Shown piece after piece: positions 41,002 to 56,037 of a stretch of 64,000 nt of DNA. The DNA is from Clostridium sp. D33t1_170424_F3 (GTDB lineage Bacteria; Bacillota; Clostridia; Oscillospirales; Acutalibacteraceae), in contig NZ_JADPEG010000003.1 of assembly GCF_015667585.1 (NCBI RefSeq), forward strand, positions 124,001-188,000, in the 5' to 3' direction. How positions within the stretch are numbered: position 1 is the stretch's first letter; each line of letters opens with the position of its first letter. The notes beneath the pieces are model-generated. The model had not been told where the DNA came from, did no database searches, and saw only the letters and a program-made list of their open reading frames with translations. A program made the position numbers and the translations under genes.

Positions 41002-41499
41002 TCACTTCCTTTCTTCTTTCTCGTCGTCCGTCAGGCGATTGCCCGCCGCGTCGACGGAATTTTTACAAACCAGAATCAGCTTCTGCAAAAACGCGGGGAT
41101 GGGCGCGCCCATCGCGCCGGCGTTTTCCACAATGGATCCCAGTTCGGTTAAAATGTACCATACGATCACAACCGGGCAGAACAGCACGGTGTATTGGAAC
41201 GGCAGGGAAACCGCGGGGAGGTGGTTTACCACCAGCCCGATCAGAATATCCGTCAGCAGGGACGCCGCAACCGCGACGATCGATCCCGCCTTGTGCCAGA
41301 TGCCCTCCCGCGCCGCCGCACTGCTCCACACGCCGGACTTGCCCGCCGCCGCGCTGCCCGTGATGTAATCCACCACCATGCAGGCCAGATAGATCACCGC
41401 CAGCCAGCCGAACCAGCCCAGCCATGCGGAAAGCGCCGCCGCCGCTGCCGAGATGGCCGCCTTGATCTCCAGAACCTGTGTTTCATTAAATCGTTCCAT
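41002..41499 (-). CDS. Phage holin, TcdE/holin-4 family
   Basis: 165 residues, three or more hydrophobic helices (LSAWLGWFGWLAVIYLACMVV, SIVAVAASLLTDILIGLVV, YTVLFCPVVIVWYILTE) and the family motif DYITGSAAAGKSGVWSS. Holins of this family make membrane holes that release endolysin; relatives assist toxin export in clostridia (TcdE, UtxA). Its 5' end overlaps the amidase gene by 14 bases. In a tail-only element this pair would release the particles by lysis. Confidence 0.88.
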   Translation of the reverse strand: MERFNETQVLEIKAAISAAAAALSAWLGWFGWLAVIYLACMVVDYITGSAAAGKSGVWSSAAAREGIWHKAGSIVAVAASLLTDILIGLVVNHLPAVSLPFQYTVLFCPVVIVWYILTELGSIVENAGAMGAPIPAFLQKLILVCKNSVDAAGNRLTDDEKEERK

Positions 41500-42220
41500 G
41501 CGTTTCTTCTCCTATCTGTACGGCGAAGAGCCGTTCGCCGTTTGCGTACACGCCGCAGCCCGCACCGGGCGGGCCGATCGCCTTGATCTGAAAATACCAG
41601 TCCCATCCCTGCTGTTTTCCGAACTTTGTCTGCAGCACGGCGCCGTTGCCGACGGTGAAAGCCGGCTTTTGCCAGCTGGTCAGCTTTACCGTGTAAATCT
41701 GCCCCCTGGGGAGGCGCATGTCCATCGTCGTGTCGGACTTGACCGCGCACAGCGCCTGTTTTACCATGTCCAGAAACCGCGGCCAGCCGAGCGCCAGCGT
41801 GCGGTGCGGACAAGTCTTTCCGGAATAGTCCTGATGCTTTGTCACCTGCTCCAGCCCCCAGCCGTACCGCGCCAGGATCGATGCGGTCAGCTCCGCGGCG
41901 TTCTGCTCCGCCAGCAGGAAGCGCGGTCCTCCGCTCTTGGAATAGCAGATCTCAATGGCGATGCCCTGCCGGTTGCCCTTCCCGTTTCCATCGCCCGCGT
42001 GCCAGGCGTTCCGGGTCTCCGGAATCGCCTGGATGGCCTCAATATCGTCCACGGCATAATGAAAAGATACTTTTTGTGTATTGGAACGCATGTAGCGGAC
42101 CTCGTTTTCCGCGCTCGCGTCATTGGCCGTGTTATGAATCACCACGCGGGTGGGGATCATCGTGTAGGGGGCTTTGATCAGGGTCTGATCCTTTGAGAGC
42201 AGGGCCTGGCGGACAATCAC
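41486..42220 (-). CDS. Endolysin: N-acetylmuramoyl-L-alanine amidase (amidase_2) with shared C-terminal module
   Basis: 244 residues from a GTG at 42220 that overlaps the upstream stop (GTGA). Residues 1-155 form a zinc amidase_2/PGRP domain: RVVIHNTAND (first Zn His), SFHYAVDD, NAWHAGDGNGKGN, and HQDYSGKTCPHR supplying the last Zn His and Cys. It cleaves the bond between MurNAc and L-Ala of peptidoglycan. The C-terminal ~83 residues (KSDTTMDMRLPRGQIYTVKL, FTVGNGAVLQTKF, AIGPPGAGCGVY, FAVQIG) are a divergent copy of the module found at the ends of five large host enzymes in this window, at the position where endolysins carry their wall-binding domain. Confidence 0.92.
   Translation of the reverse strand: MIVRQALLSKDQTLIKAPYTMIPTRVVIHNTANDASAENEVRYMRSNTQKVSFHYAVDDIEAIQAIPETRNAWHAGDGNGKGNRQGIAIEICYSKSGGPRFLLAEQNAAELTASILARYGWGLEQVTKHQDYSGKTCPHRTLALGWPRFLDMVKQALCAVKSDTTMDMRLPRGQIYTVKLTSWQKPAFTVGNGAVLQTKFGKQQGWDWYFQIKAIGPPGAGCGVYANGERLFAVQIGEETHGTI
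41492..41740 (-). other. Shared C-terminal module, copy 6 (endolysin)
   Basis: Divergent version. SDTT, LxRGxxYxxK, PxFTVGNGxVLxTxF, YFxxxAxGxPG and GVY are kept. The two end cysteines of the host copies are absent (YTVKL and LFAVQI), although a Cys occurs before GVY. The turn between strands 2 and 3 is shorter. Confidence 0.85.
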
Positions 42221-42477
42221 GCTTCCACCTGTTCGCCGGCGGTTTCCTCCTGATGCTCTTTCAGGAGCATATTAATGTGGTTCTGGGCGCTCTCCTCGAT
42301 GGTCGCGCCAGGATAGGGGGCATTGAGTTTTGTCTGAACGATCCAGTCGGCGCCGTTCTCATTGACAATGATGTAAACCTCATCATTTTTAGAGATCTTG
42401 AGAGACGTCATCGCCTTCTTTGCCGGACAGGAATTGATCGGGGACTGCTTGTCCCAAATTCTGTAAGTCAGTTTCAT
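42217..42477 (-). CDS. Small hypothetical tail-operon protein
   Basis: 86 residues, family not recognised. It has a beta-rich N-terminus (KLTYRIWDKQSP, EVYIIVNENGADWIVQTKLN) and an acidic helical C-terminus (ESAQNHINMLLKEHQEE). It sits where PBSX-type clusters have small XkdW/XkdX-like genes between fibres and lysis genes. The RBS AGGAGGTTAATA is upstream. The stop overlaps the amidase start. Confidence 0.6.
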   Translation of the reverse strand: MKLTYRIWDKQSPINSCPAKKAMTSLKISKNDEVYIIVNENGADWIVQTKLNAPYPGATIEESAQNHINMLLKEHQEETAGEQVEA

Positions 42478-42536
42478 AAATTATTAACCTCCTTATCATT
42501 TTTACTGAACCATTGATTACAGATTTTTTAGGTTCA

Positions 42537-43886
42537 CTAGTTTCTAATTTTTACCCATTGGGTCCCATCTCCAATATAAGTTGGGTATGTTTGGTACTTA
42601 CCATCTTTATAAAACCATACATGATCAAACCAACTCCGCAAGTTTAGCGATTTATCGAGAGATGAATAAAGAATAGCATCATAGTTAATTTTATCTTCTA
42701 TGGCAACTGTGTTTTCGGGTAATGGAGAATTTTTTAACTCAAATGCTGTAACGTTAAGATCGTTCTCATCTGCGGCAATAGAAGTGTTTTTTCGATTATA
42801 GAGTGGGGGAAAAATTAGTAATTGTTCCTTATCAATGCAAGCCATAGAATATCGAAAATATGAATGCGAGTCTTCATGTACAACCGGAGTGAATATTTCT
42901 GTATTGACATTAAAAAGAAAAGTGCTTTTTGTTTGGTTACTGATATCAGTCATAAATATGTTATCTTCCACATTGCAAATGACAGAAAAACTTGCGGGTG
43001 CTGTAATAGAAGTAGAGGTGTTTGTAAGAGTATTATATTTTATAAGAGTTTTGTTGGACGCAAAGTATATATTGTCATCGACAATAGAAATGAAATTCTG
43101 GGATGCATATACAGACGGCAAAGTAGCAACTTTTGTAAATGTTGTTTTAAATCCATCAAGAGATACTTTATATAGTTCAGTTGCGCTGACTACATAAGAT
43201 GATGAAGTCCAGGTAACTGCTTCTAATGCATAAAGAGTGTTTTTGACGCAGCCAATTATAAATTTGTCTTTTGGTATTTTTGTGGTTGTAGAGGTACTAG
43301 AGTCTAGTTCATTACCACTTTTATCTAACTTTTTTGCGAGACAAATTGTATCGCTGTCTTTAATTTCACCATCTTTTTTCTTGTAATATTCAAAATGTGC
43401 AAAAATATAAAAAGAATCGTTATACTCAAAAGCATTTGCACCAGCATAACAGTGCCAGATATAGTTGGAACTTGCAGAATAATGCTCATTGAAAAGCGTT
43501 TGTTTTTCAAATTTTTTAGTTTGCATATTAAATTTATACAAGTACACAATATGATAATATCTTTGAGAGTCCTGAGATACATCATCGAATTCTTGTTCGT
43601 TTGTAACAAAAAATATAGAATTATCTCCAACAAACGGTCTCCATAGAAAGGTAGGATAGTGCAAATATGTATCGCCATAAGTCTCTGAACCCATTAGACA
43701 AGACTTGTATCCAGTAGGGCCTAAAAACTGTCCTAAAAATGAAAAATGTTTACGCATATTACATTTAAATGATGCAGGCCGTTCAGGCATTTGAAGCCAA
43801 ATACCGTCTTTCACATGAGGCTCTTCCGGTTGACAGAAAACATTTACGCTAGCACTGTTTCCTCCGGTTCTTATAATATTTGCCAT
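42537..43886 (-). CDS. Kelch/beta-propeller-like tail tip protein, AT-rich
   Basis: 449 residues. An N-terminal attachment-like segment (SASVNVFCQPEEPHVKDGIW) precedes a series of beta blades of the form 'D..IYFASNKTLIKYNTLTNT', 'DNIFMTD...', 'YHIVYLYKFNMQTKKFEKQ', as in Kelch-type propellers of clostridial phage tails. It is probably a receptor-binding protein. GC content is clearly below that of the flanking tail genes (long A/T runs, AT-ending codons). The start overlaps the upstream stop by one base (TAATG), so the AT-rich body was probably acquired in place without disturbing coupling. Confidence 0.65.
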   Translation of the reverse strand: MANIIRTGGNSASVNVFCQPEEPHVKDGIWLQMPERPASFKCNMRKHFSFLGQFLGPTGYKSCLMGSETYGDTYLHYPTFLWRPFVGDNSIFFVTNEQEFDDVSQDSQRYYHIVYLYKFNMQTKKFEKQTLFNEHYSASSNYIWHCYAGANAFEYNDSFYIFAHFEYYKKKDGEIKDSDTICLAKKLDKSGNELDSSTSTTTKIPKDKFIIGCVKNTLYALEAVTWTSSSYVVSATELYKVSLDGFKTTFTKVATLPSVYASQNFISIVDDNIYFASNKTLIKYNTLTNTSTSITAPASFSVICNVEDNIFMTDISNQTKSTFLFNVNTEIFTPVVHEDSHSYFRYSMACIDKEQLLIFPPLYNRKNTSIAADENDLNVTAFELKNSPLPENTVAIEDKINYDAILYSSLDKSLNLRSWFDHVWFYKDGKYQTYPTYIGDGTQWVKIRN

Positions 43887-44437
43887 TATAAATCCCCCCG
43901 AATAATGATGCGAATGGGAATATCTGTTTCTGGTTTACTTCCCCACGCCTTCAAAACGATAGAGTTAGCCGCCTGCCCTCCGTCCTGAATATTAGCCGCC
44001 TGCAAAGCGTTCAGTTCCTCTTCCGTAATATCCAAGTCAGGCAAAATATCCTGATTGCTGGTCGTTGTCACACCGGCAACCGAAAGCGTGTACGTAAACG
44101 GCGGTGCGCTGCCAACCCACCCGGATGAAAGGAGCGTCTTTTCCAGCGTCGTAGACGGCGCGCTCCAATACGGTGCGCCTGTGGTGTTCTGGCGAAGAAA
44201 AGACCTGGTTTTCGTCGGAGCCGGAACCTGCGTCAGCGTCGTGGAAGAAGACGGATAGATTAAGCGCGACGCCGTCCAGGTTGTCTTTCCTGTACCGCCG
44301 CGCGATACCGCCACGGTGTTGGCGTTCAGTTTCATCTGCGTATCAATTTTGCCCAGGTTTCTATTGTAAACCGTAATGTCGTAAAATTCCGTTTCCAAGG
44401 GCATTTCCAATTTGTAATTACTGGTTTCTATTGCCAT
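43886..44437 (-). CDS. Proximal tail fibre protein
   Basis: 183 residues. The N-terminal SNYKLEMPLETEFYDITVYN...LGKIDTQMK is a typical phage fibre attachment segment in PBSX-like clusters. Residues ~45-95 carry SRGGTGKTTWTASRLIY and TTLTQVPAPT, also present in the collagen-like fibre. The C-terminal 60 residues (TEEELNALQAANIQDGGQAAN) are mixed. It directly follows the DUF2313 gene, the normal place for the first fibre. Confidence 0.75.
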   Translation of the reverse strand: MAIETSNYKLEMPLETEFYDITVYNRNLGKIDTQMKLNANTVAVSRGGTGKTTWTASRLIYPSSSTTLTQVPAPTKTRSFLRQNTTGAPYWSAPSTTLEKTLLSSGWVGSAPPFTYTLSVAGVTTTSNQDILPDLDITEEELNALQAANIQDGGQAANSIVLKAWGSKPETDIPIRIIIRGDL

Positions 44438-45014
44438 TGATCTCTCCTCCTCTGATCTGAATATGTGTGCATTTCTTGCTGTTTAATGCCAGATGCGTCC
44501 ATTTTGCCTGAGCGATTTCCCTGTGCGTCAGATACCGAATATCGTAGGTATACTGCAAATGTGCGGGTTTGATCTCGTCAATCGCGGCGGAAAGATCGTC
44601 CAGCAGCGGCGGAACGCCAATATCTCCAAATTGAATGGTAAAACGATTGGATTCCGGGTACTCCTGAATCATAATGTTGCCGTTGACAAAACTTTCCGCC
44701 AGATTTTGAATCATATCCCGCGTTGTCGTACCCTTCCCGCGCATCTTACTCAAAATTCTGGCACGCCGGTCTTTCTCGCTTTTGGACGGGTCTGTGTCCA
44801 GACCGTAGAGCTTTTCCCAAAGCTTTAATCCCCATGTTGTGGTGTTCACCAGAAGCTGCTGCACAAAGCTGTCGCCCGGCTGTTCTTCCAGCTCTTTCCC
44901 AACGCCCCAGGCCTCCTGCGCCGCGGCAATGGCCGGGTCGATCGTATCCTGCATTTTTTCGGTTTCCGTCTCGCCGTTTCTCTGGTAATAGTCCGGCAAA
45001 AGCTGTTTCATCAT
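44418..45014 (-). CDS. DUF2313 tail protein (XkdU-like, baseplate wedge)
   Basis: 198 residues. The family signature is seen in LLPDYYQRNGETE at the N-terminus, LWEKLYGLDTDPSKSEKDRRARILSKMRGKGTTT in the middle, and the terminal PAHLQYTYDIRYLTHREI, which resembles the T4 gp7/Mu gp48 class of baseplate proteins linking baseplate J to fibres. Its ATGA start overlaps the baseplate J stop. Confidence 0.9.
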   Translation of the reverse strand: MMKQLLPDYYQRNGETETEKMQDTIDPAIAAAQEAWGVGKELEEQPGDSFVQQLLVNTTTWGLKLWEKLYGLDTDPSKSEKDRRARILSKMRGKGTTTRDMIQNLAESFVNGNIMIQEYPESNRFTIQFGDIGVPPLLDDLSAAIDEIKPAHLQYTYDIRYLTHREIAQAKWTHLALNSKKCTHIQIRGGEINGNRNQ

Positions 45015-46276
45015 AGTGATTCACCTTCCGGGTCCACATAAGGCTCCACATCGACGTTGCCGAGCACCGGGACTTCGTTTTCTGCAAAAAGAATATTTTT
45101 CTTCTCCGCGTCTCCGGCGGCATATGTGCTGGGCGCGCTGGACACGCCGCTGATTTGCAGGTTTCCGATGTCCTTGACGCCGTTTACATTCAGCAGGAGA
45201 TTCACCACATGGTTATAGCGCAGGGACTTCTCCTTAAACGCAATCTTTTTAATGTACTCTTCCAGCGCGGTGCGGAAATCGTCGCGCACCTGTTCGATGG
45301 TCGCCAACCCCAAAAGCTCTGCTTTCACGCTGATGTCGATTCTCTTGGTCGCCGCGCTGAGCACATTTACGTTTACCCCGATCGGGCGGCAGGTTTCAAT
45401 GTGATCCCAGCAGTTTTTCAGAATCACATCGTCGGTGACCGGCTTTTTGTCCGGCCCAATGACATAGACGGAAATCTGCGGCAATGGGATGTCCCTTTCC
45501 ACATAGACCGTATTTCCGCTGCCGTCTGTCGTTTGAACATAGATCGGATTGACCTCTGCAAACTGATCCGCGCCGGTATTGCCCGTGTCGCGGTACAGGT
45601 GCATGTGTTCCTCCACGATTTTTGCATCGCCGATACCCGGGACCTCCGTCGCCCACTGCTGATAGTGGGATGCGTTGCCGCTTGTCCCCGGGTCGCGCAG
45701 CCGCTTGTAGAGGCGCTCTACCAGATCCTTGTCCGATTCCGAATCGTCCGTGCCGCCCTCCACCGCTTTTTCATTGGTGATGCTCTGCACCGTAATTCCA
45801 GCCAGCGCGGTTTGCAGCTGTGTGATGGCGCCGGGCTCCACGTTATAGGGCGTCCCGGTCTGTTCCGCCTCGACGTTTACCAGGGCTGTCCCGTTTTTAA
45901 CGGTGACCGCTTCCGTGGAATAGTACCGTCTGCGGTTGTCCGCATTTTCTTCGTTGGTTGTAAAGCAGGTGTTTACAGGCACCTGCTGGTTGTTCACGGA
46001 TGCTGCGCAGGTCATTTTGACATAGCCGGACGCTTTCTGCGGCTCCTTGCGCGTGATGCCGTACTCCGCACAGCGCCGGTCGATGTATGTACCGGAGGTT
46101 TCGTCCACAAAGGCGATGGGAATCAGCTCGTTCATCGTATCGTAAAGCTTCCAGATTTCATAGGCAACCGGGCTGACCAGATCGCTGGTGTAGCTGCCCT
46201 CGCGTTTATCCAGCTCGTTCGACATGCCCGCCAGGATTTGTTCCCGGATATTTTCCGGTGTTTTTTCTTCAAACAT
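45011..46276 (-). CDS. Baseplate J-like protein (XkdT-like)
   Basis: 421 residues from ATG 46276, set by GGAGGTGATATCC; the frame is open further upstream without a second site. Baseplate_J features: SYTSDLVSPVAYEIWKLY and DETSGTYIDRRCAEYGITR at the N-terminus, GTPYNVEPGAITQL in the central domain, and GGTDDSESDKDLVERLYKR. In contractile tails J-type proteins form the baseplate wedges that connect hub to sheath. Confidence 0.93.
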   Translation of the reverse strand: MFEEKTPENIREQILAGMSNELDKREGSYTSDLVSPVAYEIWKLYDTMNELIPIAFVDETSGTYIDRRCAEYGITRKEPQKASGYVKMTCAASVNNQQVPVNTCFTTNEENADNRRRYYSTEAVTVKNGTALVNVEAEQTGTPYNVEPGAITQLQTALAGITVQSITNEKAVEGGTDDSESDKDLVERLYKRLRDPGTSGNASHYQQWATEVPGIGDAKIVEEHMHLYRDTGNTGADQFAEVNPIYVQTTDGSGNTVYVERDIPLPQISVYVIGPDKKPVTDDVILKNCWDHIETCRPIGVNVNVLSAATKRIDISVKAELLGLATIEQVRDDFRTALEEYIKKIAFKEKSLRYNHVVNLLLNVNGVKDIGNLQISGVSSAPSTYAAGDAEKKNILFAENEVPVLGNVDVEPYVDPEGESL

Positions 46277-46742
46277 GGATATCACCTCCCAATTGTATAT
46301 CGCCGTAGACGGTTTTGATCCGGCATGTGATGTGCAGGATGTCCGCCGCATAGCGGCCATTTGCCGTTTTGTCTGTGTCGTCTTCCTTTTTGCCAAAGGA
46401 AACGTCCAGTTCCTCCACGCCGGTGATGTAGGGATTCACCAGCAGGCTTTCCCGGATATACCGCATCGCCTCGGCGCGCTTCAGGGCTTCCGTGTAGGGC
46501 TGCCCGATCAGGGCCGCCAGCTCGCAGCCGTAGTTCCAGGTGTAAATTTTATATCGGAACCGCTCCGTGTGCAGGGTTTTCCACGCCCAGGTCAGAACGG
46601 CTTCCTCGCGCTCCACAATGACCGGATTCTTATCCTGAAACACCGGCTTGTTCGCGGTAAAATCCCATTTGACCTCCCGGTAGGTCGGAAGCTCGTTCTG
46701 CACCTCCACGGTTGGCGGCTGGATAATTGGAAACAGGGTCAT
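46269..46742 (-). CDS. DUF2634 baseplate protein (XkdS-like, gp25-type)
   Basis: 157 residues. TYREVKWDFTANKP...EREEAVLTWAWKTLHTERFRY...NYGCELAALIG is the DUF2634/XkdS signature, a homologue of the gp25-type sheath initiator at the baseplate. It overlaps the DUF2577 gene (ATGA) and the baseplate J gene by a few bases. Confidence 0.9.
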   Translation of the reverse strand: MTLFPIIQPPTVEVQNELPTYREVKWDFTANKPVFQDKNPVIVEREEAVLTWAWKTLHTERFRYKIYTWNYGCELAALIGQPYTEALKRAEAMRYIRESLLVNPYITGVEELDVSFGKKEDDTDKTANGRYAADILHITCRIKTVYGDIQLGGDIHV

Positions 46743-47005
46743 GCGCCCACCACCTTACATAGTACATAGAATAGCTGCTGATCCCCGCGCGGCGACATCA
46801 GGACGATGTCTCCCGGACGGAGAGCGTCTTCGCCGCGCAGCAGCGCGTTGATTTTCACGTCGTTTTGGTCCAATTCAATATTCCCCATTTTGATTTTCAG
46901 CGGAGCCGCGCTGGTGACGGTTCCCGTCGCGTTGGCGGGAATGCGCTGTTCCGCGATTTCCTGCCGGATCGCCTGCCAGAATGAAGAATACGGGTTATCT
47001 TCCAT
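46739..47005 (-). CDS. DUF2577 tail protein (XkdR-like)
   Basis: 88 residues, with an OB-like beta core (TGTVTSAAPLKIKMGNIELDQNDVKINALL, LRPGDIVLMSPRGDQQLFYVL). It is normally found between hub and baseplate genes in PBSX-type clusters and thought to belong to the central spike or hub. GGAGGG precedes the start. Confidence 0.88.
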   Translation of the reverse strand: MEDNPYSSFWQAIRQEIAEQRIPANATGTVTSAAPLKIKMGNIELDQNDVKINALLRGEDALRPGDIVLMSPRGDQQLFYVLCKVVGA

Positions 47006-47022
47006 AGGTTTCCCTCCGCTCC

Positions 47023-48015
47023 TTATTTTTTGTTTTCCGGCTTGCTGCCGGCTTCGACCTCGTCCATCATGCTCTGGAAGTTGACCACAAGCTGGTTTTT
47101 GTAAACGCCGTCCTTCCAGGTGTGGATGTCGGATTCAATGTAGAACAGGCCGGAAAGCCCGGTGTACGGTTCCTTTACGATGACCGCGTCGCCTGTCAGG
47201 CTGGTTACGTCCCCCAGACAGTCCAGCGTCACCTTTTGAGAAACGCCGTTTTCCGCCAAAAGTTTTTCTGCCTTTTCTTTCGCGTTTTCGTCCTTGTTTT
47301 GGGACAGGTAATTCTGCATCAGGCCGTACAATCTGATGTACGAATCGTTGGAGACCTGTCCCGTTTCCTTGTCGTTCTCATCGCGGATCGAAATTTTGTT
47401 AATCATGTTCTCAATGCTCTCGGAGCAGGAGGCCTGTAACAGGTTCGCGCCGCCCTCGATTACCAGTTTATTGCCGTCGGCGCTTTTTTCCAGAACGTTC
47501 AGCTTTCCGCCGGAGAACCGGATAAAATACTGCTTTTTGGTCTTGGCGGCCGCCAGTGTATAGGCGGTCTGGATCATCTCATACAGCGAGCATCCGGAGA
47601 AAATGCGGGACACCGTTACCCCCGGCTGGACGAGCTGTCCCATCGGCACCTCAAATTCGGCGCAGATTTTTTTCGCGATCGCGTCCGGCGTTTCATTTGT
47701 GAATTTAAAGGATGCTTTGTTGCGGTTGAGATAGTAGCCCCGGTCGTAGCAGCGGATGGAAATCGCGCTGTCGCCCGTTCCCTTTTGGCGGGAGAAGATG
47801 TAGCCCTGGAACAGCTCTTTGCCGTCGAGGGAGAAGGTCACCGCGTCGCCCAGTTCGCAGGTGACTTTCGGCAGATTGGCGTCGTCCGGCGTGGAAACCA
47901 GGTCGACCTCCAGAATACGCGTGCATTGCCGGTATTCCCCGGACCACTCCACGGAGGCGATCATCTGGCTGAGGTCGTACAAGTTATTTTCATGCGTTAC
48001 AAGAAGCTTTAACAT
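47023..48015 (-). CDS. Tail hub protein (XkdQ-like, gp27/gpD-type)
   Basis: 330 residues. The N-terminal MLKLLVTHENNLYDLSQMIASVEWSGEYRQCTRILEV and the GELGDAVTFSLDGKELFQGYIFSRQ-like block match the XkdQ family, the trimeric hub below the tail tube. The C-terminal TGLSGLFYIESDIHTWKDGVYKNQLVVNF region is also typical. It sits between the LysM protein and DUF2577, the normal order. Confidence 0.92.
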   Translation of the reverse strand: MLKLLVTHENNLYDLSQMIASVEWSGEYRQCTRILEVDLVSTPDDANLPKVTCELGDAVTFSLDGKELFQGYIFSRQKGTGDSAISIRCYDRGYYLNRNKASFKFTNETPDAIAKKICAEFEVPMGQLVQPGVTVSRIFSGCSLYEMIQTAYTLAAAKTKKQYFIRFSGGKLNVLEKSADGNKLVIEGGANLLQASCSESIENMINKISIRDENDKETGQVSNDSYIRLYGLMQNYLSQNKDENAKEKAEKLLAENGVSQKVTLDCLGDVTSLTGDAVIVKEPYTGLSGLFYIESDIHTWKDGVYKNQLVVNFQSMMDEVEAGSKPENKK

Positions 48016-48028
48016 GCGTCCCGCCCCC

Positions 48029-48670
48029 TTACAGTTTGGATTTGTCCGGCAGCTGCAGCGTCTTTCCCGCGTAGATTAGGTTGGGATTTTTGATCCCGTT
48101 GTAACTGGCGACCTTCGTGTAGAGCGCTTTGGAGCCGTCTCCGTAGAACTCCCTGCAGATCGCGCTCAGCGTATCGCCCGTTTTAACGGTGTAGGTTTTT
48201 GCCGCCGCGGGCGGTGTTTCCACCCGGCGTTCCTCTGTTTTGGTCGCCTGCTCCGTCTTCACGATCTTCGGCAGACGGTATTCCCGCAGGGAAAGCGTCG
48301 CGTAGACGTCGTTGGTTCCGTCCCGCTCGCCGTATTCGATGCTCTCTACCAGAACCTCCATGTTGACCGGCGTATCGGAGACGATGAACCGCAGGGGCGT
48401 ATGGTTGTCCGCACACTGCTCAAAAAACTGCACATAGGCGTATGGCGTCTGCGCGGAACCGCTGGTGAAGGGATAGCTTTTCCCGGGAAACAGGCATTGG
48501 ATGGACAGCGTCGCCAGCGCGCCGCCGCCTGCAAGATTTAAGTCCCCCAGCGTGTACATATCCACCGTTTCAACCTTTACGCCGTGGCGGATGGTGAAGT
48601 CCTCCGGAGTGACAGGCAGGGCTAGTTCCTGCTGGGTTTTGGAGTCTTTAAATATAAATTTACGAAGCAT
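48029..48670 (-). CDS. LysM tail protein (XkdP-like)
   Basis: 213 residues. The N-terminal tail-specific domain (LALPVTPEDFTIRHGVKVETVDMYTLGDLNL) is followed by a Lys/Glu/Pro linker and one LysM domain (about 158-208, TYTVKTGDTLSAICREFYGDG...NLIYAGKTLQLP). It binds peptidoglycan or caps the hub. GGGAG precedes the start at 48670. Confidence 0.93.
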   Translation of the reverse strand: MLRKFIFKDSKTQQELALPVTPEDFTIRHGVKVETVDMYTLGDLNLAGGGALATLSIQCLFPGKSYPFTSGSAQTPYAYVQFFEQCADNHTPLRFIVSDTPVNMEVLVESIEYGERDGTNDVYATLSLREYRLPKIVKTEQATKTEERRVETPPAAAKTYTVKTGDTLSAICREFYGDGSKALYTKVASYNGIKNPNLIYAGKTLQLPDKSKL

Positions 48671-48701
48671 TCTATTGTATCTCCCTGTACATTTGTATAT
48701 A

Positions 48702-49835
48702 TCACCTAGGCTCTATGGATGGAGCAAATGTGCCCTTATTACGTACCATGTTCTCAGCATGCTGTTGTGCGAATTGGCTCACAGTTACAGTTTCAGGAAC
48801 TTTTAATTGATATGTTATATGGTATGTTTTAGGCGTACCTTTTTCTATATAAGTTTTAACAGTTTGCTGTATGTCAGTTGCGGCTTTAGAAATACTATCG
48901 GCACTATACTTAACATCCTTAATGGTAGTATCGGGTAAAATCCCTGGAGACGGACCTATCGGAACCTCATCGGAAACAGGCGACGCTAGGTTTGTGACAT
49001 ATTTGTCATGCATATCGGTGTATGTAACGGAAAAGGCTTCATCCAATGCATCAGAAGGTTTATTCCATGCGCCTTCATAATTATATGCAAAATAATTGAG
49101 CAGTTCGACCAGCTTTACATCGCGATCTCGCTGTTCCTGCAGCAAGGAAGAATTTGCTTCATAATCCATCTCGACCCGGGCTTTTTGCGCTTCAACCATT
49201 GCCAGCATGGTGTCGTAGTCATTATTTTTCTTGGCTTCCAAATAGTTTGCATCTTTAGTCATCATGGCGGTCAAGGCTTTTTCTGTTGCGGCTTGCTTTT
49301 CTGCTTCTATGTTTGCTTCTTTTTTTCCTTGTTCGCTGTAAAGCATTTGTATTTCAGAACCAATTTCACTATTCTGGAAAGCTTCTTCTTTTTTTAGAGT
49401 TTTATCATTTGTTTCTTTGTATCCCTGGCCTTTAGCAAGTGCAAATTGATCGACGAAATCCATATTAGCTCTTTGTTCTTCTGACATATTGGCTAATTGC
49501 AATCCCGTCTTCGTCATTTCGCTTCTTTCGGATAAAATGTCATTATATGTTTTCCTGACAAAATCCTGAAAAGGCTGATCTTTTTCTCCCGGTTTTCCAA
49601 ACTGGTCAATAGAAGAATCGATAATACTTGAGAAAACGCCTAAGATTCCTCCTAGAATTCCTCCTGTCGCAAAACCCTCTAGACCGCTTTTGATTGCATC
49701 GTCCACATAACCACCCATGGACTCGCCAAACATTTCCTGAGTAAACATTCCAAGGATAGCATCTCGTTTATCTACAACGAATCCGTTTACATCGTCTGGA
49801 TTAAATTTTGCGAAAGAATCATCTAGGTATCCCAT
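48702..49835 (-). CDS. Short AT-rich protein in the tape-measure position
   Basis: 377 residues, where PBSX-type clusters carry a tape-measure protein usually of about 600-1,500 residues. It has a hydrophobic glycine-rich segment near 55-75 (FATGGILGGILGVFSSII), a long helical middle (about 90-245), and a C-terminus (KVPETVTVSQFAQQHAENMV) resembling the last helix of tape measures. GC is visibly lower than in flanking genes. AAGGAGGAG precedes the ATG, which lies next to the stop of the frameshifted chaperone. It may be an internally deleted tape measure or an unrelated replacement; no domain is recognised beyond this. Confidence 0.7.
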   Translation of the reverse strand: MGYLDDSFAKFNPDDVNGFVVDKRDAILGMFTQEMFGESMGGYVDDAIKSGLEGFATGGILGGILGVFSSIIDSSIDQFGKPGEKDQPFQDFVRKTYNDILSERSEMTKTGLQLANMSEEQRANMDFVDQFALAKGQGYKETNDKTLKKEEAFQNSEIGSEIQMLYSEQGKKEANIEAEKQAATEKALTAMMTKDANYLEAKKNNDYDTMLAMVEAQKARVEMDYEANSSLLQEQRDRDVKLVELLNYFAYNYEGAWNKPSDALDEAFSVTYTDMHDKYVTNLASPVSDEVPIGPSPGILPDTTIKDVKYSADSISKAATDIQQTVKTYIEKGTPKTYHITYQLKVPETVTVSQFAQQHAENMVRNKGTFAPSIEPR

Positions 49836-49836
49836 T

Positions 49837-50348
49837 TCATCTCCTCCTTTCCATATCTTTTTCGAAAAAGGCCCTTATTACAGCCTTTTCCCCCGCGGGC
49901 AGGCTGTAATAAGAACCGGGCATCATGTTTTTTTCCAGGAACAGATAGTACATCAGCTGTACTTCCGCGTCTTCATCTATTTTTTTTTAACCTCTTCCAC
50001 GGTGTTCTGGCGGAAGCCGCTCAGCTTTTCGATCTCGCGGCCCAGGTCTTCCACCTCGCCGGGCAGAAGCATCGCTTTCACCAGCTCCACCGGCGTGGCA
50101 GCGCGGTATTTTTCCTGCAGTTCTTTCGATTTCAAATCGGGGGAGGTCACGCCCGCCAATACGATATGGACGCTCATGTTTTCTCCCTTGCAGGTCTCGC
50201 GGATGTCCGCCACGCGGCTGTAGGAGAGCGCCTTCAGGGAGAAAATCACGTCTTCGCCGCAGAGCTCGCTCAGGCGCTTCATCTTAAACTCTTTTTCCGG
50301 CACGCCGGGCAATTCCGCTTTCAGCAGCAGATCCAATGCATTGCTCAT
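49837..50348 (-). CDS. Tail assembly chaperone, -1 frameshift long form
   Basis: Translating the short form (49977-50348) and slipping -1 on the A9 run just before its TAG opens a further ~47 codons ending in TGA at 49837. The extension reads IDEDAEVQLMYYLFLEKN, MMPGSYYSLPAGEKAVIRAF, then a short basic tail. It resembles the downstream overlapping products of other tail chaperones (G/GT type). It fills the otherwise empty gap exactly up to the next gene. Confidence 0.75.
49977..50348 (-). CDS. Tail assembly chaperone (XkdN-like), short form
   Basis: 123 residues. The XkdN-type features are an N-terminal DLLLKAELPGVPEKEFKMKRLSELCG, a core of helices, and a C-terminal VELVKAMLLPGEVEDLGREIEKLSGF. 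It is a homologue of the protein that coats the tape measure during tail assembly. It ends VKKK-stop at an A9 slippery run that allows -1 frameshifting into the long form. Confidence 0.88.
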   Translation of the reverse strand: MSNALDLLLKAELPGVPEKEFKMKRLSELCGEDVIFSLKALSYSRVADIRETCKGENMSVHIVLAGVTSPDLKSKELQEKYRAATPVELVKAMLLPGEVEDLGREIEKLSGFRQNTVEEVKKK

Positions 50349-50349
50349 C

Positions 50350-50784
50350 TTATTCCGCCTCCGGGATCATATCGAGATAGTCGTAGTCGGTGAAGGTAAA
50401 CGGCGCGTCCACCTTGCCGGTCGCGCCCGCTTCCCAGTCTGCCAGAGTCAGGTCGTCAAAGGAAACGCCGTTCGCCACTACGCGCTCCGCGCCGTAGGCG
50501 TCCGGGTCGTCCAGTTTGGAAATGATGGTAAAGCGGACGTCCTCGCCGTTCTTCATGCTGCTGCCGATTTTGCGCGCCATGCGGCTGGAGGTCTTGTACA
50601 GCTTTACAGTGCCGGAGCAGTCCATACCGGTGATCTTTTTGTCCGTGGCCATCATGCCGCAGCGCTTGATGTCTTCCTTTTTAAAAGAAACCTTGAGCTG
50701 CATGCCGTAGCATTCCGCCACATATTCGTTGTCGAGCCAAACCTCGCCCCAGGTGCCGGAAATCACTCTTTTTGCACTTTCCAT
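50350..50784 (-). CDS. Tail tube protein (XkdM-like)
   Basis: 144 residues. The sequence ISGTWGEVWLDNEYVAECYGMQLKV...ITGMDCSGTVKLYKTSSRM is the XkdM/gp19-like tube signature. The tube is the inner rigid cylinder of a contractile tail. AAGGAGGATTTAAACC gives the start, and the sheath gene ends 14 bases upstream. Confidence 0.92.
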   Translation of the reverse strand: MESAKRVISGTWGEVWLDNEYVAECYGMQLKVSFKKEDIKRCGMMATDKKITGMDCSGTVKLYKTSSRMARKIGSSMKNGEDVRFTIISKLDDPDAYGAERVVANGVSFDDLTLADWEAGATGKVDAPFTFTDYDYLDMIPEAE

Positions 50785-50798
50785 GGTTTAAATCCTCC

Positions 50799-51926
50799 TT
50801 AAATTGCAATCTGCAGATCGATATCCTCGATCGCATCCAGAATTTTAATACTTGCCGCTAGGAATACCTTGTCCTTCGTGTTGGCGTTGCGGAGCTCCTG
50901 CTCGCTCAGCTCGGAGACGTCCACGCCGGTGCTCTGGAGGTATGCGGACTGCGCGTCCCTGTCGATGTCCACGACGCTCTTGCCCGGGTCCAGAATGCCC
51001 TCCTGCTCCAGCTGGGTGAAATAGCCCTTAATTGCGGTAATCAGCAGGCACTTGTTGTCGTAGCTGTTGGCGTACTTGCCAATGTAGTTGTCCTGTGCGG
51101 TCATGCGAATGTCGCTCTGAATCATGTCCACCGCTTCCACAATCTTGATCTTCTTGAATTCCTCGCCGTGGCCCTCACTGGTGGTGGTCATGGAGTTGAC
51201 GCCCCTGCCGACCTTGACCTTGCGGCCGTCGTGCATCAGGATGAACTTGCCTGCATCGATGGCCGTGTCCATCTCCGTCTGGGACAAACGTGTGATGTCC
51301 TCTACCTCGGAGAGCGGCGCGTAGGTGCAGGAGATGTTCATCGGGGTGCCCGCCAGAAGGCCCGCGATGCGGCTGCAATACTGGCCCGCGCTGAAGGTTT
51401 CCCGATGGTCCTTATCCTCTGCGGTCGGCATGTGGACCACGATGCCCGACGTTGTGAAATTGATCACGCCGTCGCTGTCCGCGGCTGTGTTCGGCAGTAC
51501 GGCTTTTACCGTGCGGTTGTTGCGTCTCTGCGTTTCAATCCAGCTGGACAGGACGGAGGCCTGCAGCGACTCGCCGCTCATGCCAAGCGTCTGCGGACCG
51601 GCCAGATAGTCAAAGGTCTGCGTGCTCAAAACTTTCAGAGCCTCGTCAAAGGTGTTATCGCCGGCCGCCATCTCATAAACCAGAACTTTTCCCGGCTTGT
51701 TTACATAGCCAAGGAACGCGTTCTCAATGTATTTCTGATTGGTCATGACTTCGTTTTCTCTTTTGTTCAGCAAAGAGGCGGGCAGATTGGAAGCGCTGGT
51801 CAGCGTATGCAGCTTTCTTTCGGAACCGGTGCCTCTTACAATCAGCGCCACAATGCCTTTCTGCGAACGCTGTACAGCGGATACCCCCTGTGTTTTAAAT
51901 GCGATATGAATATTGGGAAGTCCCAT
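50799..51926 (-). CDS. Contractile tail sheath protein (XkdK-like)
   Basis: 375 residues from ATG 51926 (AGGAGGAATTTACAA upstream). Begins MGLPNIHIAFKTQGVSAVQRSQKG, the XkdK start, and ends with the sheath C-terminal domain (KVFLAASIKILDAIEDIDLQI). Contraction of the sheath drives the tube into a target envelope. Its presence defines the cluster as myovirus-like or R-type tailocin-like rather than siphovirus-like. Confidence 0.95.
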   Translation of the reverse strand: MGLPNIHIAFKTQGVSAVQRSQKGIVALIVRGTGSERKLHTLTSASNLPASLLNKRENEVMTNQKYIENAFLGYVNKPGKVLVYEMAAGDNTFDEALKVLSTQTFDYLAGPQTLGMSGESLQASVLSSWIETQRRNNRTVKAVLPNTAADSDGVINFTTSGIVVHMPTAEDKDHRETFSAGQYCSRIAGLLAGTPMNISCTYAPLSEVEDITRLSQTEMDTAIDAGKFILMHDGRKVKVGRGVNSMTTTSEGHGEEFKKIKIVEAVDMIQSDIRMTAQDNYIGKYANSYDNKCLLITAIKGYFTQLEQEGILDPGKSVVDIDRDAQSAYLQSTGVDVSELSEQELRNANTKDKVFLAASIKILDAIEDIDLQIAI

Positions 51927-52005
51927 TTGTAAATTCCTCCTGTTATACATTTTTGTTTACAGACACGGCATCCAGCCGTGCCTTTTATGATCTGGTTGCC
52001 GCGTC

Positions 52006-52461
52006 TCAATAGGATAGGTTTGTATGGATTTCCTGCATTTTTTCCGCCGGACCGCCGCCGTCCTTTGGAAGCGGCCGGTCGTCAAAGTAGTCGAAGGTCA
52101 AATCGAGCTTGACCCAGTCTTCGCCCCGCTCGCCTTTACCCAGCTGTACCGGCAGCGCGCGGTCCTGCAGGCGCAGATAGCCGGAGGCAAAGAGCGACTG
52201 CATTTGGTCCTGTACGGCCAGCAGCTCTTCTGTGTCGCTGGCTGCATAGTCGTCCAGAGTCCCGTAGTAGGTTACGGCGAATTGAGAAGTCTTTTTCACG
52301 CTGACGCGCGTCGCCGGCTGCTGTTCTTCGGAGATGAATTCGATCAGGAAGCAGGGCCGCTGGAACTGGGCCGGACAGCGCCCGATGTAGAAAAAGCATT
52401 CCCCGTGCGCGTCCGCCAGCAGGCGGTTGAGCTGCTCCAGAATCTGTGCGCTCGTTGTCAT
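52006..52461 (-). CDS. DUF6838-type tail terminator/completion protein
   Basis: 151 residues. The sequence LEQLNRLLADAHGECFFYIGRCPAQFQRPCFLIEF...DLTFDYFDDRP resembles the small protein that precedes the sheath in clostridial PBSX-like clusters (DUF6838), thought to terminate the tail tube. GGGGGTGAAACC precedes the start. Confidence 0.75.
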   Translation of the reverse strand: MTTSAQILEQLNRLLADAHGECFFYIGRCPAQFQRPCFLIEFISEEQQPATRVSVKKTSQFAVTYYGTLDDYAASDTEELLAVQDQMQSLFASGYLRLQDRALPVQLGKGERGEDWVKLDLTFDYFDDRPLPKDGGGPAEKMQEIHTNLSY

Positions 52462-52489
52462 GGTTTCACCCCCTTTCCGGTGTCCCCTG

Positions 52490-53074
52490 TCACTGTTCCC
52501 GCTGGATGGTCAGATCGTAGACGTCGCGGTCGGGGCGCATGGTGTATGCTGCCGCCACCGTGTAATGCGTGTGGCCGATCCGCACCAGATCTCCGGGCAG
52601 AAGCGACTCTCGTTTTGGGGTGGTCAGCTGGCAGGCCTGCCGGCTTGCCGTCTGCGGCATGGAGCGCGTATACGTCGGTTCTTTTTCTTCCAGGTAGCCG
52701 GGGAACACCGCGATTTCCCGCAGAGTTGTCACAGGCCGGTTCAGCTCGCCCTTTTCCACCTGCGGCCGCATGGCCGCGCACAGCTTGGGTTCCGCCATCC
52801 GCACCAGCGCCCGGCTGTACTGTTTGCCCACCGGCGCCACGTCCAGCACCATGCCCCGCTTGCCGTTCCATTCGACCGGTGTGCAGGGGGCCAGCGCCCG
52901 GCGGCGCATGGTCATCGCTACTTCCTCCAGCTCCGGATTATCCCCGCACGGGCAGCGCGGGGGAAGCGTTTCCGCTTTTACCCAGAGCTGCGCCGCGGTT
53001 TCCCACCGCAGGTCTTCGCCGCTGCCCGCGGCGGAAAGCAATGTAACCTTGTCTCTCAGCTCTCCCGCGTTCAA
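52490..53074 (-). CDS. Head-tail adaptor-like protein
   Basis: 194 residues from a TTG at 53074 that overlaps the upstream stop (TTGA), with GAGGTGGG in front. NAGELRDKVTLLSAAG...WETAAQLWVKAETL resembles the phage head-tail adaptor family (gp16/SPP1-like); the C-terminal LLPGDLVRIGHTHYTVAAAY is a typical strand pair. In a phage this joins the portal to the tail; here no portal or capsid gene exists, so it is a relic or has a tail-capping role. Confidence 0.7.
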   Translation of the reverse strand: MNAGELRDKVTLLSAAGSGEDLRWETAAQLWVKAETLPPRCPCGDNPELEEVAMTMRRRALAPCTPVEWNGKRGMVLDVAPVGKQYSRALVRMAEPKLCAAMRPQVEKGELNRPVTTLREIAVFPGYLEEKEPTYTRSMPQTASRQACQLTTPKRESLLPGDLVRIGHTHYTVAAAYTMRPDRDVYDLTIQREQ

Positions 53075-53364
53075 GTGGCCCCCACCTCCGGTTTTACCGT
53101 GTGCAGGTCCAGAATCTTCTGTACCACCGGATTCATCGTGCTGCCTGCCGCCGTCATCTGCCGGTTGTCGTACAGATCGGAGCAAACCGTCAGGATCGCC
53201 GCGGTCAGATCTTCAGAATCGTCCAGCTGATCCTCCCGCAGGCCGGTGTAACGGATGACAAACGCTTTAGCCGCGGACAAAAAGATTTCCAGGGTCTGGA
53301 CATTTTCTTCCTCGGCGCGCAGATACTGCTTTACGGTATCCAGCGTAATGTTGCTTGCGCGCAT
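53071..53364 (-). CDS. gp6-like head-tail connector
   Basis: 97 residues: ITLDTVKQYLRAEEENVQTLEIFLSAAKAFV...ILTVCSDLYDNRQM is the gp6-like connector signature (short helical protein forming a ring under the portal). It is the first gene of the operon, with GGAGGCAGGAAA before the ATG. The capsid and portal genes that would normally precede it are absent. Confidence 0.85.
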   Translation of the reverse strand: MRASNITLDTVKQYLRAEEENVQTLEIFLSAAKAFVIRYTGLREDQLDDSEDLTAAILTVCSDLYDNRQMTAAGSTMNPVVQKILDLHTVKPEVGAT

Positions 53365-53775: not shown

Positions 53776-56037
53776 TTACTTCTTCTGCCGGTACCACCCC
53801 GGTGTCACACCCTCATACCGCTTAAACGCGCGGTTCATTGTGATGGAATTTGCGTACCCCACCATGGCGGAAATATCCCCAATTGTGTGGTCGGTGTGCA
53901 AAATCAGGTCTTTGGCCCGTTCGATGCGGTACTTGTGCAGATAATCGAGGAAACCGATGTTCAGCTCCTGCTTAAACAAAGTTGACAATACCGGCAGGCT
54001 CATGTGGAAGCGCTCCGCGACCGCGCCGGCGGACAGGTTGATGTCCTGGTAGTTTTCTTCAATATACTGTGTGATCTGCTCGATCCGCCGTTCCTGCGGC
54101 TGGCTGCGGACCCTGCGTTCCTCCAGGCTGGTGAAAATGTGGGATGCCCGGCGGCCCAGCGAATCCATGCCATGCGCCTTGCGCAGATAGTTGTCGCAGT
54201 CCAGCTCCCTGAGCACTTGCGGGTCCGCGACGCTGTCGTACAGGGAGAGCAGGATCGCGTCCGTGAGATAGGAATACTGCATCTGTCCCAGCGTCAGGGA
54301 CGCAGGGCGATGCGCCGTGAATTCCTGGGCAATTTCCCGGACAAGCGCGGTGGCCTGCACAAAGTTTCCGGATTGGATGATGTTGACCAGCTTGTTGGTT
54401 TTCCCCAGGAAATCCTTGCTGCCATATCCCTCCGACAATACGTTTGCGATGGAATCATAGGCGCTGACAAGATTGTATTCCCCGGCCAGCAGGCTGTATT
54501 CCACCACCTGCATTGCCTCATTGTATGCCTCGTGCAGTTCGCTGATTTGTTTATGCATCCCGCTGATCGCAACGGAAATGGAAGTTTGCAGCTCAGAATC
54601 CATAAAATGCCGAATATCCTCCGCACAGACGGCGGCGTCTTCTATGGAACAGTCGGTCATGTCCGCTACCCCCGCATACAGGCCCTGGCAGCGCACCACA
54701 TAGGCCGCACAGCCCCGGTTCAGGAAGAAGGAACGGCAGGTCTGTTTAAGCAGGCTGACCGTTTCCGCCTCTGGGAGCAGCGTATTGGTTTCTCTTTCCT
54801 CTGCCTCATCAATGTGGATGAGGAAAACAATGTATTGACTGCACTCAACCGGGAATCCGCCGCGGCGCAGGGCTTCCAGAATATCCGGGGAAATTTGGAT
54901 TTCCCCGATGACAAGACGGGTCAGCAGGCTGTTTGTCAATAGCTCGCTTTGTGTGCTCAGCTGCGCTTCATAGCTTTTGGCCCGGTTGTATAGTTCCTGC
55001 ACCGTGCTGTTGAGGATGCGGAACTCATTTGGACCTTTTTTCTCGTTTGTTTCCGAAGGAAGCGCATCCATCAGCTCCTCCAGGGGCTTGTACAGCTTGT
55101 GTGCAAACAGGTAAGAAAATCCGCCGCCCACCAGCAGGGAGACCAGCAGAGTCGCCAGTAAAGTGGTCAGCACCATCTCAAACCCGTCGCGCGCGTTGTT
55201 GTCCGGTATCACGATCACCTGCTGCAGCGTCTCGTTCGCAAAACCCTGATGGTAGACAAAGTAGGGGATGCCATTCCATTCCAGCCGTTCCCGTTCCTCC
55301 CAGGAACGTACCTCTTCATAGGTGATGGGAAGCCCTGCCGTCTCGCCGTCCGGGTCGGAGGAGATCATGCGGTTGTTCTGTGTGATGAAAATAGTCTGGG
55401 AACCTTCCGGAAGATAATAATAGCTCAGGGTTTCAGAAATCTGGCTGTCTTCATTCCCGATCAGCCATACGACGCCCGGATACACCTCGCGGACAAAAAA
55501 GAAGCGGGCAAAATCCATATTGGGGTCCCGGATGATTTCCGCCACGGCGGAATCCCCGGTTTCCATCAGGCGATTCCAGGTGCTCATGTCCATATCCATG
55601 ACGTCTGTAATGATATGGTCGGCCACCGGGTCCCCATAGGCGTCCCCGTTTCCAAAGCTGCGCCCGCTGTTCCGAAAATACAGAAACATGGGCTGTTCAA
55701 AGGAGGGGAGATTCAGACGGCAGGTCCAAACATAATTGTTAAAGAACGCTTCCACCTCCTCCGAATCACGCGGAATCACATCCGCCTTTGCCAGTTGATC
55801 GATTCCCTTGGTTTCAGAAAGCAGCTCGCTGGTTTTCTGGTAGTAGGACAGCGTCGCTTCCGTATTGGCCATACTCTTTTCCACCATGGAATCGTATGAC
55901 TTTTCGAGCTGTTTCCTCTCCTGATCGGCGGTGTGCAGGTATTGTCCCAGGATGGCTCCGCTGCAAATGAGCGTGACAATAAAGAAAGCGCCGATCAAGT
56001 TATAAAAGCTTTTTCCTCTGTAAGGTCGTTTTTTCAT
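53776..56037 (-). CDS. Membrane-bound AraC-family regulator with extracellular sensor
   Basis: 753 residues. TM1 at about 12-33, an extracytoplasmic sensor of ~250 residues (dCache-like; FNNYVWTCRLNLPSFEQPMFLYF), TM2 at about 288-312 (VLTTLLATLLVSLLVGGGFSYLF) followed by a HAMP-like stretch. A cytosolic region with degenerate cyclase-like fold follows (about 370-600). The C-terminal HTH_18 domain covers about 655-753 (ITQYIEENYQDINLSAGAVAERFHMS, ending MNRAFKRYEGVTPGWYRQKK). This architecture is common in Firmicutes next to glycan-use genes. It is divergent from the GH3 gene 542 bases away, which is its most likely target, with an external sugar as the plausible signal. Confidence 0.88.
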   Translation of the reverse strand: MKKRPYRGKSFYNLIGAFFIVTLICSGAILGQYLHTADQERKQLEKSYDSMVEKSMANTEATLSYYQKTSELLSETKGIDQLAKADVIPRDSEEVEAFFNNYVWTCRLNLPSFEQPMFLYFRNSGRSFGNGDAYGDPVADHIITDVMDMDMSTWNRLMETGDSAVAEIIRDPNMDFARFFFVREVYPGVVWLIGNEDSQISETLSYYYLPEGSQTIFITQNNRMISSDPDGETAGLPITYEEVRSWEERERLEWNGIPYFVYHQGFANETLQQVIVIPDNNARDGFEMVLTTLLATLLVSLLVGGGFSYLFAHKLYKPLEELMDALPSETNEKKGPNEFRILNSTVQELYNRAKSYEAQLSTQSELLTNSLLTRLVIGEIQISPDILEALRRGGFPVECSQYIVFLIHIDEAEERETNTLLPEAETVSLLKQTCRSFFLNRGCAAYVVRCQGLYAGVADMTDCSIEDAAVCAEDIRHFMDSELQTSISVAISGMHKQISELHEAYNEAMQVVEYSLLAGEYNLVSAYDSIANVLSEGYGSKDFLGKTNKLVNIIQSGNFVQATALVREIAQEFTAHRPASLTLGQMQYSYLTDAILLSLYDSVADPQVLRELDCDNYLRKAHGMDSLGRRASHIFTSLEERRVRSQPQERRIEQITQYIEENYQDINLSAGAVAERFHMSLPVLSTLFKQELNIGFLDYLHKYRIERAKDLILHTDHTIGDISAMVGYANSITMNRAFKRYEGVTPGWYRQKK

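Follow-up and report, generated by a model that had tools for sequence, protein, structure and literature searches.

Sequence evidence for a probable programmed -1 frameshift of the G/GT type in an XkdN-family tail assembly chaperone gene

Introduction

The window, as the whole 64-kb stretch of DNA analysed is called here, carries an XkdN-like tail assembly chaperone gene whose reading frame closes on a run of nine adenines, followed by an open -1 frame that ends where the next gene begins. The locus raises the question of whether the chaperone is produced both as a short protein, G, and as a -1 extended protein, G-T, and by which route the two frames would be joined. The first-pass annotation read it as the G/GT arrangement of phage tail chaperones; this reading is supported by the position of the gene, the PF08890 match, the conserved heptamer and T domain, and purifying selection in the -1 frame. 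Taken together, a G/GT-type programmed -1 frameshift in the XkdN-family chaperone very probably accounts for the locus.

The comparison comprises 82 loci, obtained from (i) protein searches in the genus, family and order, (ii) a PF08890 search covering 398 genomes across the phylum, and (iii) phage records, their frames being read by homology-defined G and T. Because several are near-copies, the 82 loci do not represent 82 independent observations.

Results

Organization of the locus

Chaperone G, the A9 run and the T extension lie on the minus strand of the window (Table 1); the first-pass annotation had located them correctly, leaving the strand unstated. As described there, the XkdN-like frame ends in GTT AAA AAA AAA TAG, and the -1 frame, estimated at some 47 open codons, reads 47 residues from 49980, IDEDAEVQLMYYLFLEKNMMPGSYYSLPAGEKAVIRAFFEKDMERRR. 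On the other hand, its stop had been placed two bases before the ATG of the next gene, whereas the actual gap is one base (TGA 49839-49837, ATG 49835). The -1 frame is closed directly upstream of the run by the TAA within GTTAAA, so the shift must fall on the last seven A's, with a predicted fusion junction KKK-IDEDAEVQLMYYLF in which the 0-frame lysines continue into T.

Table 1. Features of the chaperone locus and its neighbours in the window
Feature	Position	Strand	Basis
Tail sheath protein, contractile tail	50799..51950	-	PF04984, PF17482, phrog_1480
Tail tube protein, XkdM-like, presumed T partner	50350..50784	-	PF09393 E=6e-51
G, XkdN-like tail assembly chaperone, 123 aa, TAG stop 49979-49977	49977..50348	-	PF08890, phrog_389
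GAGG, Shine-Dalgarno-like, 4 nt upstream of heptamer, possible upstream stimulator	49991..49994	-	sequence
A9 run, last three Lys codons AAA AAA AAA	49980..49988	-	sequence
Slippery heptamer A_AAA_AAA, last two codons of G	49986-49980	-	sequence
Predicted 11-bp hairpin, one bulge, ~11 nt after heptamer, -11.8 kcal/mol, possible weak stimulator	49941..49968	-	folding
T, -1 frame extension, 47 aa, TGA stop 49839-49837	49837..49980	-	phrog_2722, dN/dS, conservation in 80 loci
AGGAGG, ribosome-binding site of next gene, within end of T	49843..49848	-	sequence
Tape-measure-slot gene, 377 aa, GC 0.40, presumed client of G and GT	48702..49835	-	position, weak G514 match

Nowhere else in the 64 kb do nine A's or nine T's follow one another. 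Taken alone, 40 or more open codons in the -1 frame are uninformative, being found in 332 of 700 mechanically listed ORFs; 11 of the 700 pair an open -1 frame with an in-frame A_AAA_AAN within the last four codons, one in each of the 11 regions searched and each time in the XkdN gene. Among these 700 ORFs, the combination is thus specific to XkdN genes.

G matches PF08890 (Phage_TAC_5, Phage XkdN-like tail assembly chaperone; E=3.7e-23, 82.4 bits, curated cut-off 27) and phrog_389 (tail protein XkdN-like, E=2e-26), the best solved relative being YqbN from B. subtilis (3klu_A), a weak match (E 0.006). Searched on its own, T matches phrog_2722 (E=1.5e-10), starting at residue 10 of T, and also phrog_28231, both of unknown function, and a profile search returned no Pfam family for it. 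The gene order comprises sheath, tube, G, tape-measure slot, a LysM protein, a YqbQ-like protein and baseplate proteins, with probable fibre genes and then the amidase and holin beyond, so that G sits between the PF09393 tube gene and the tape-measure slot, as in the G/GT arrangement.

Conservation of the slippery site and the T frame

An in-frame A_AAA_AA[C/A/G] heptamer marks the 0-frame end of the chaperone in 81 of the 82 loci, at most one codon from the stop in 80 of them and 18 codons before it in one (A_AAA_AAG). The sites comprise A6C (60 loci), A7C (9), A9 (8), A8C (2), A7 (1) and A6G (1), and all 81 are accompanied by a -1 T domain, which measures 45-82 aa apart from one that is cut by a contig end. 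According to the first-pass annotation, close homologues in which the -1 frame is no longer open would count against a frameshift; such cases were looked for, and the frame is kept in all eight A9 loci, and heptamer plus T domain are kept in 81 of the 82 family members.

The 82nd locus, from Streptococcus phage EJ-1, encodes a continuous 198-aa in-frame G-T protein (L098 1788-2384). Javan336 and MismyG, which retain the shift, have the same A_AAA_AAC with one A fewer just ahead of it. Judged from these alignments, EJ-1 would display either a natural in-frame fusion or an error in the record.

A second XkdN gene in the genome of the window (L095, G000:C2, ~90.5 kb) has the site A_AAA_AAC, a T of 82 aa and a tape measure of normal length (1067 aa).

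Coding and selection of the T domain

Comparison of the window with the second A. senegalensis locus (L004) gives, for T in the -1 frame, a dS of 0.57 and a dN of 0.09, with 4, 3 and 14 substitutions at the first, second and third codon positions, respectively, and the other two frames of the region display the reverse dN/dS pattern; the closest relative (L003) differs from the window at just four sites, uninformative for dN/dS. T is under purifying selection in the -1 frame only. The T alignment shows a proline conserved throughout and, in many of the sequences, a PxGEK-like motif.

This coding capacity could also belong to a small gene in its own right, started within the -1 frame, as might be suggested by the ATG at codon 10 of the window T, the phrog_2722 match that starts no earlier than this codon, and the small hypothetical protein annotated at the T position in the Lietuvens and Lachnospiraceae phage records. 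Nevertheless, an ATG ahead of the conserved proline is missing from 48 of the 80 T frames, and in 26 of the 80 the conserved core is preceded by none of ATG, GTG and TTG, while the residues preceding the first Met of T are conserved; since start codons are missing in these 26 and the pre-Met residues are kept, T is not generally startable internally. In addition, the junction heptamer is maintained in 81 loci and T is fused to G in EJ-1, making an independent gene very improbable.

A true 170-residue ORF broken by an indel, be it a pseudogene or a homopolymer sequencing error, is more improbable still, to the point of being negligible. Homopolymer runs are error prone and a one-base insertion fuses the frames in EJ-1; however, both the run and its frame relation are seen again in separate assemblies, A. 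senegalensis and the other A9 loci among them, 60 sites have just six A's, and the dN of T lies well below its dS. The preferred reading remains that of a frameshift that joins T to G.

Ribosomal versus transcriptional slippage

Nine A's are a classical run length for transcriptional slippage, and six or seven are too short for efficient slippage of the polymerase. RNA polymerase slipping on the nine A's could thus be the chief source of the extended protein, with A10 transcripts placing G and T in one frame, and two observations point in this direction: (i) all eight loci of the A9 type have exactly nine A's, and (ii) their terminal Lys codons are AAA in 24 of 24 cases, although 38 of the 89 other Lys codons of the same genes are AAG. 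Against this, the same shift occurs at the same place in 60 of 81 sites with six A's followed by C and in nine with seven, and A_AAA_AAA is itself a ribosomal slippery heptamer. Furthermore, all runs longer than six A's fall in one 27-row clade of the tree, where the A9 type, accounting for three changes and compatible with one origin or several, is nested alongside A7C and A8C sites. Because 60 sites have six A's, a general dependence of the family on polymerase slippage is unlikely; as the main source of the extended protein at A9, such slippage appears unlikely as well, while it may add to ribosomal slippage in the A9 clade.

Candidate stimulatory elements

The hairpin predicted downstream of the heptamer recurs unchanged in the A. 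senegalensis locus; that of the window scores no better than synonymous-codon randomisation (z -0.76). In the family at large, the 55 nt following the heptamer fold more stably than sequences randomised in this way, with a mean z of -1.58 (s.e.m. 0.19), compared with -0.28 for G. RNAalifold predicts no conserved downstream helix for the family and just a weak structure ~60 nt downstream for the A9 loci; in view of this result and of the lack of support from covariation, no conserved helix is claimed. A 16-bp helix ~8 nt after the A_AAA_AAC of one locus (L057) was rejected, its pair counts in 31 relatives not being meaningfully above those of shuffles.

Upstream, Shine-Dalgarno-like cores lie 4-18 nt from the heptamer in 26 of 81 loci, compared with 6-9 of 81 at control distances, an enrichment that may merely reflect conserved Glu codons. 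A downstream stem-loop and an upstream Shine-Dalgarno element characterise stimulated bacterial -1 frameshifts of the dnaX/IS type; in the window, stimulation of the shift by the hairpin or by the Shine-Dalgarno-like core is possible.

The tape-measure slot and the tail cluster

The protein encoded in the tape-measure slot (377 aa, GC 0.40) is 27% identical to its A. senegalensis counterpart (456 aa, GC 0.36; L082 6597-7967), whereas the flanking DNA on either side matches at 88% identity right to the borders of the gene. The gene has no Pfam or PHROG match, and its product matches weakly (E 4.7e-4) a 747-aa protein encoded directly after XkdN/T in G514; ordinary tape measures comprise ~680-750 aa in most related loci. 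The slot looks like a cassette exchange or the very fast divergence of a non-canonical tape measure. The A9 run was considered as a marker of short tape measures and discarded, as the other A9 loci have slot proteins of 679-733 aa.

The contractile tail cluster extends over 41005-53364 (-), from a connector gene to the holin and amidase, with an AraC-family regulator (53776-56037) at its border, and the same neighbourhood is found in A. senegalensis. Upstream of the connector gene at 53364, neither a terminase nor a portal or capsid gene was detected, and the window shows no head genes; for this reason the cluster is a candidate headless, tailocin-like contractile tail or prophage remnant. Adjoining the holin of the cluster, a 703-aa ORF (38889-40997, -) with collagen triple-helix repeats (PF01391, E 3e-18) is possibly a fibre or adhesin.

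Discussion

Proposed mechanism

We infer the slip itself, the G:GT ratio and the partners of T as follows. The majority of ribosomes would terminate at the TAG and release the 123-residue G, while a minority, with tRNA-Lys on the last two AAA codons (A_AAA_AAA), would slip back one base and read 47 -1 codons, yielding a G-T fusion of 170 residues that closes at the start of the next gene. By extension of the lambda model, GT would link the tape measure to the tube protein; this model and its conservation are reviewed in PMC5009743, which cites Levin et al. 1993 and Xu, Hendrix and Duda 2004 for lambda G/GT. Poly-A frameshift cassettes from other genes in E. coli reached 10%, 40% and 63% for 7, 9 and 11 A's, respectively (PMC3711429); as efficiency grows with the length of the run, the A9 site of the window may, by analogy, be comparatively efficient. 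A broader scenario, in which the A9 run of an Oscillospirales clade was rebuilt to join ribosomal and transcriptional slippage, raising GT:G, and in the window serves the short, fast-diverging tape measure of a headless contractile-tail (tailocin-like) particle, is speculative and, in our view, quite unlikely.

Implications for annotation

The frameshift is marked in none of the eight annotated phage records examined. The T frame is unannotated in the CD1801, AQ113, phiC2 and MismyG records, corresponds in position to a small hypothetical ORF annotated on its own in Lietuvens, Javan336 and the Lachnospiraceae phage, and is fused in EJ-1. G/GT systems make the fusion at a defined low ratio, and neither form is present in the finished tail. 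In C. difficile phage phiCD508, the XkdN-like gp57 and the small gp58 were not found in virions (PMC11948020); gp58, whose number places it between gp57 and the tape measure gp59, is of unknown function and could be a separately annotated T domain. No paper stating an XkdN frameshift was found in the open-access literature, and no priority is claimed.

To judge from the sequences, the XkdN family appears to use the G/GT frameshift essentially universally (81 of the 82 loci sampled), and records rarely show it. The T domains match seven PHROGs of unknown function (2722, 10943, 20560, 28231, 33439, 5646 and 4503; at least five members each), which thereby gain a likely identity. The annotation of PBSX-like prophages and tailocins is correctable by a simple rule, namely an xkdN end with A_AAA_AAN followed by a -1 ORF.

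Comparison with known systems

Three known systems are relevant to the window locus. First, the window G is a member of the XkdN/YqbN family (PF08890, phrog_389, B. subtilis YqbN 3KLU), whose usual site is A_AAA_AAC, whereas the window displays the A_AAA_AAA type within A9. Second, poly-A slippage of the dnaX type is ribosomal in E. coli and transcriptional in Thermus; dnaX and the window share A-rich slippery runs, and both mechanisms are possible on A9, but the dnaX shift yields the short product whereas that of the window is predicted to yield the long one. Third, lambda G/GT resembles the window in the position of the gene between tail tube and tape measure, in the production of a short G and a -1 extended GT, predicted for the window, and in the placement of the slippery site at the 3' end of G. 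On the other hand, the sequences are unrelated, and the lambda slippery heptamer differs from A_AAA_AAA, which in the window lies in A9 directly before the stop; the window also differs in its T of just 47 aa and its contractile tail. With these distinctions, the window locus is a well-supported addition to the known lambda G/GT kind.
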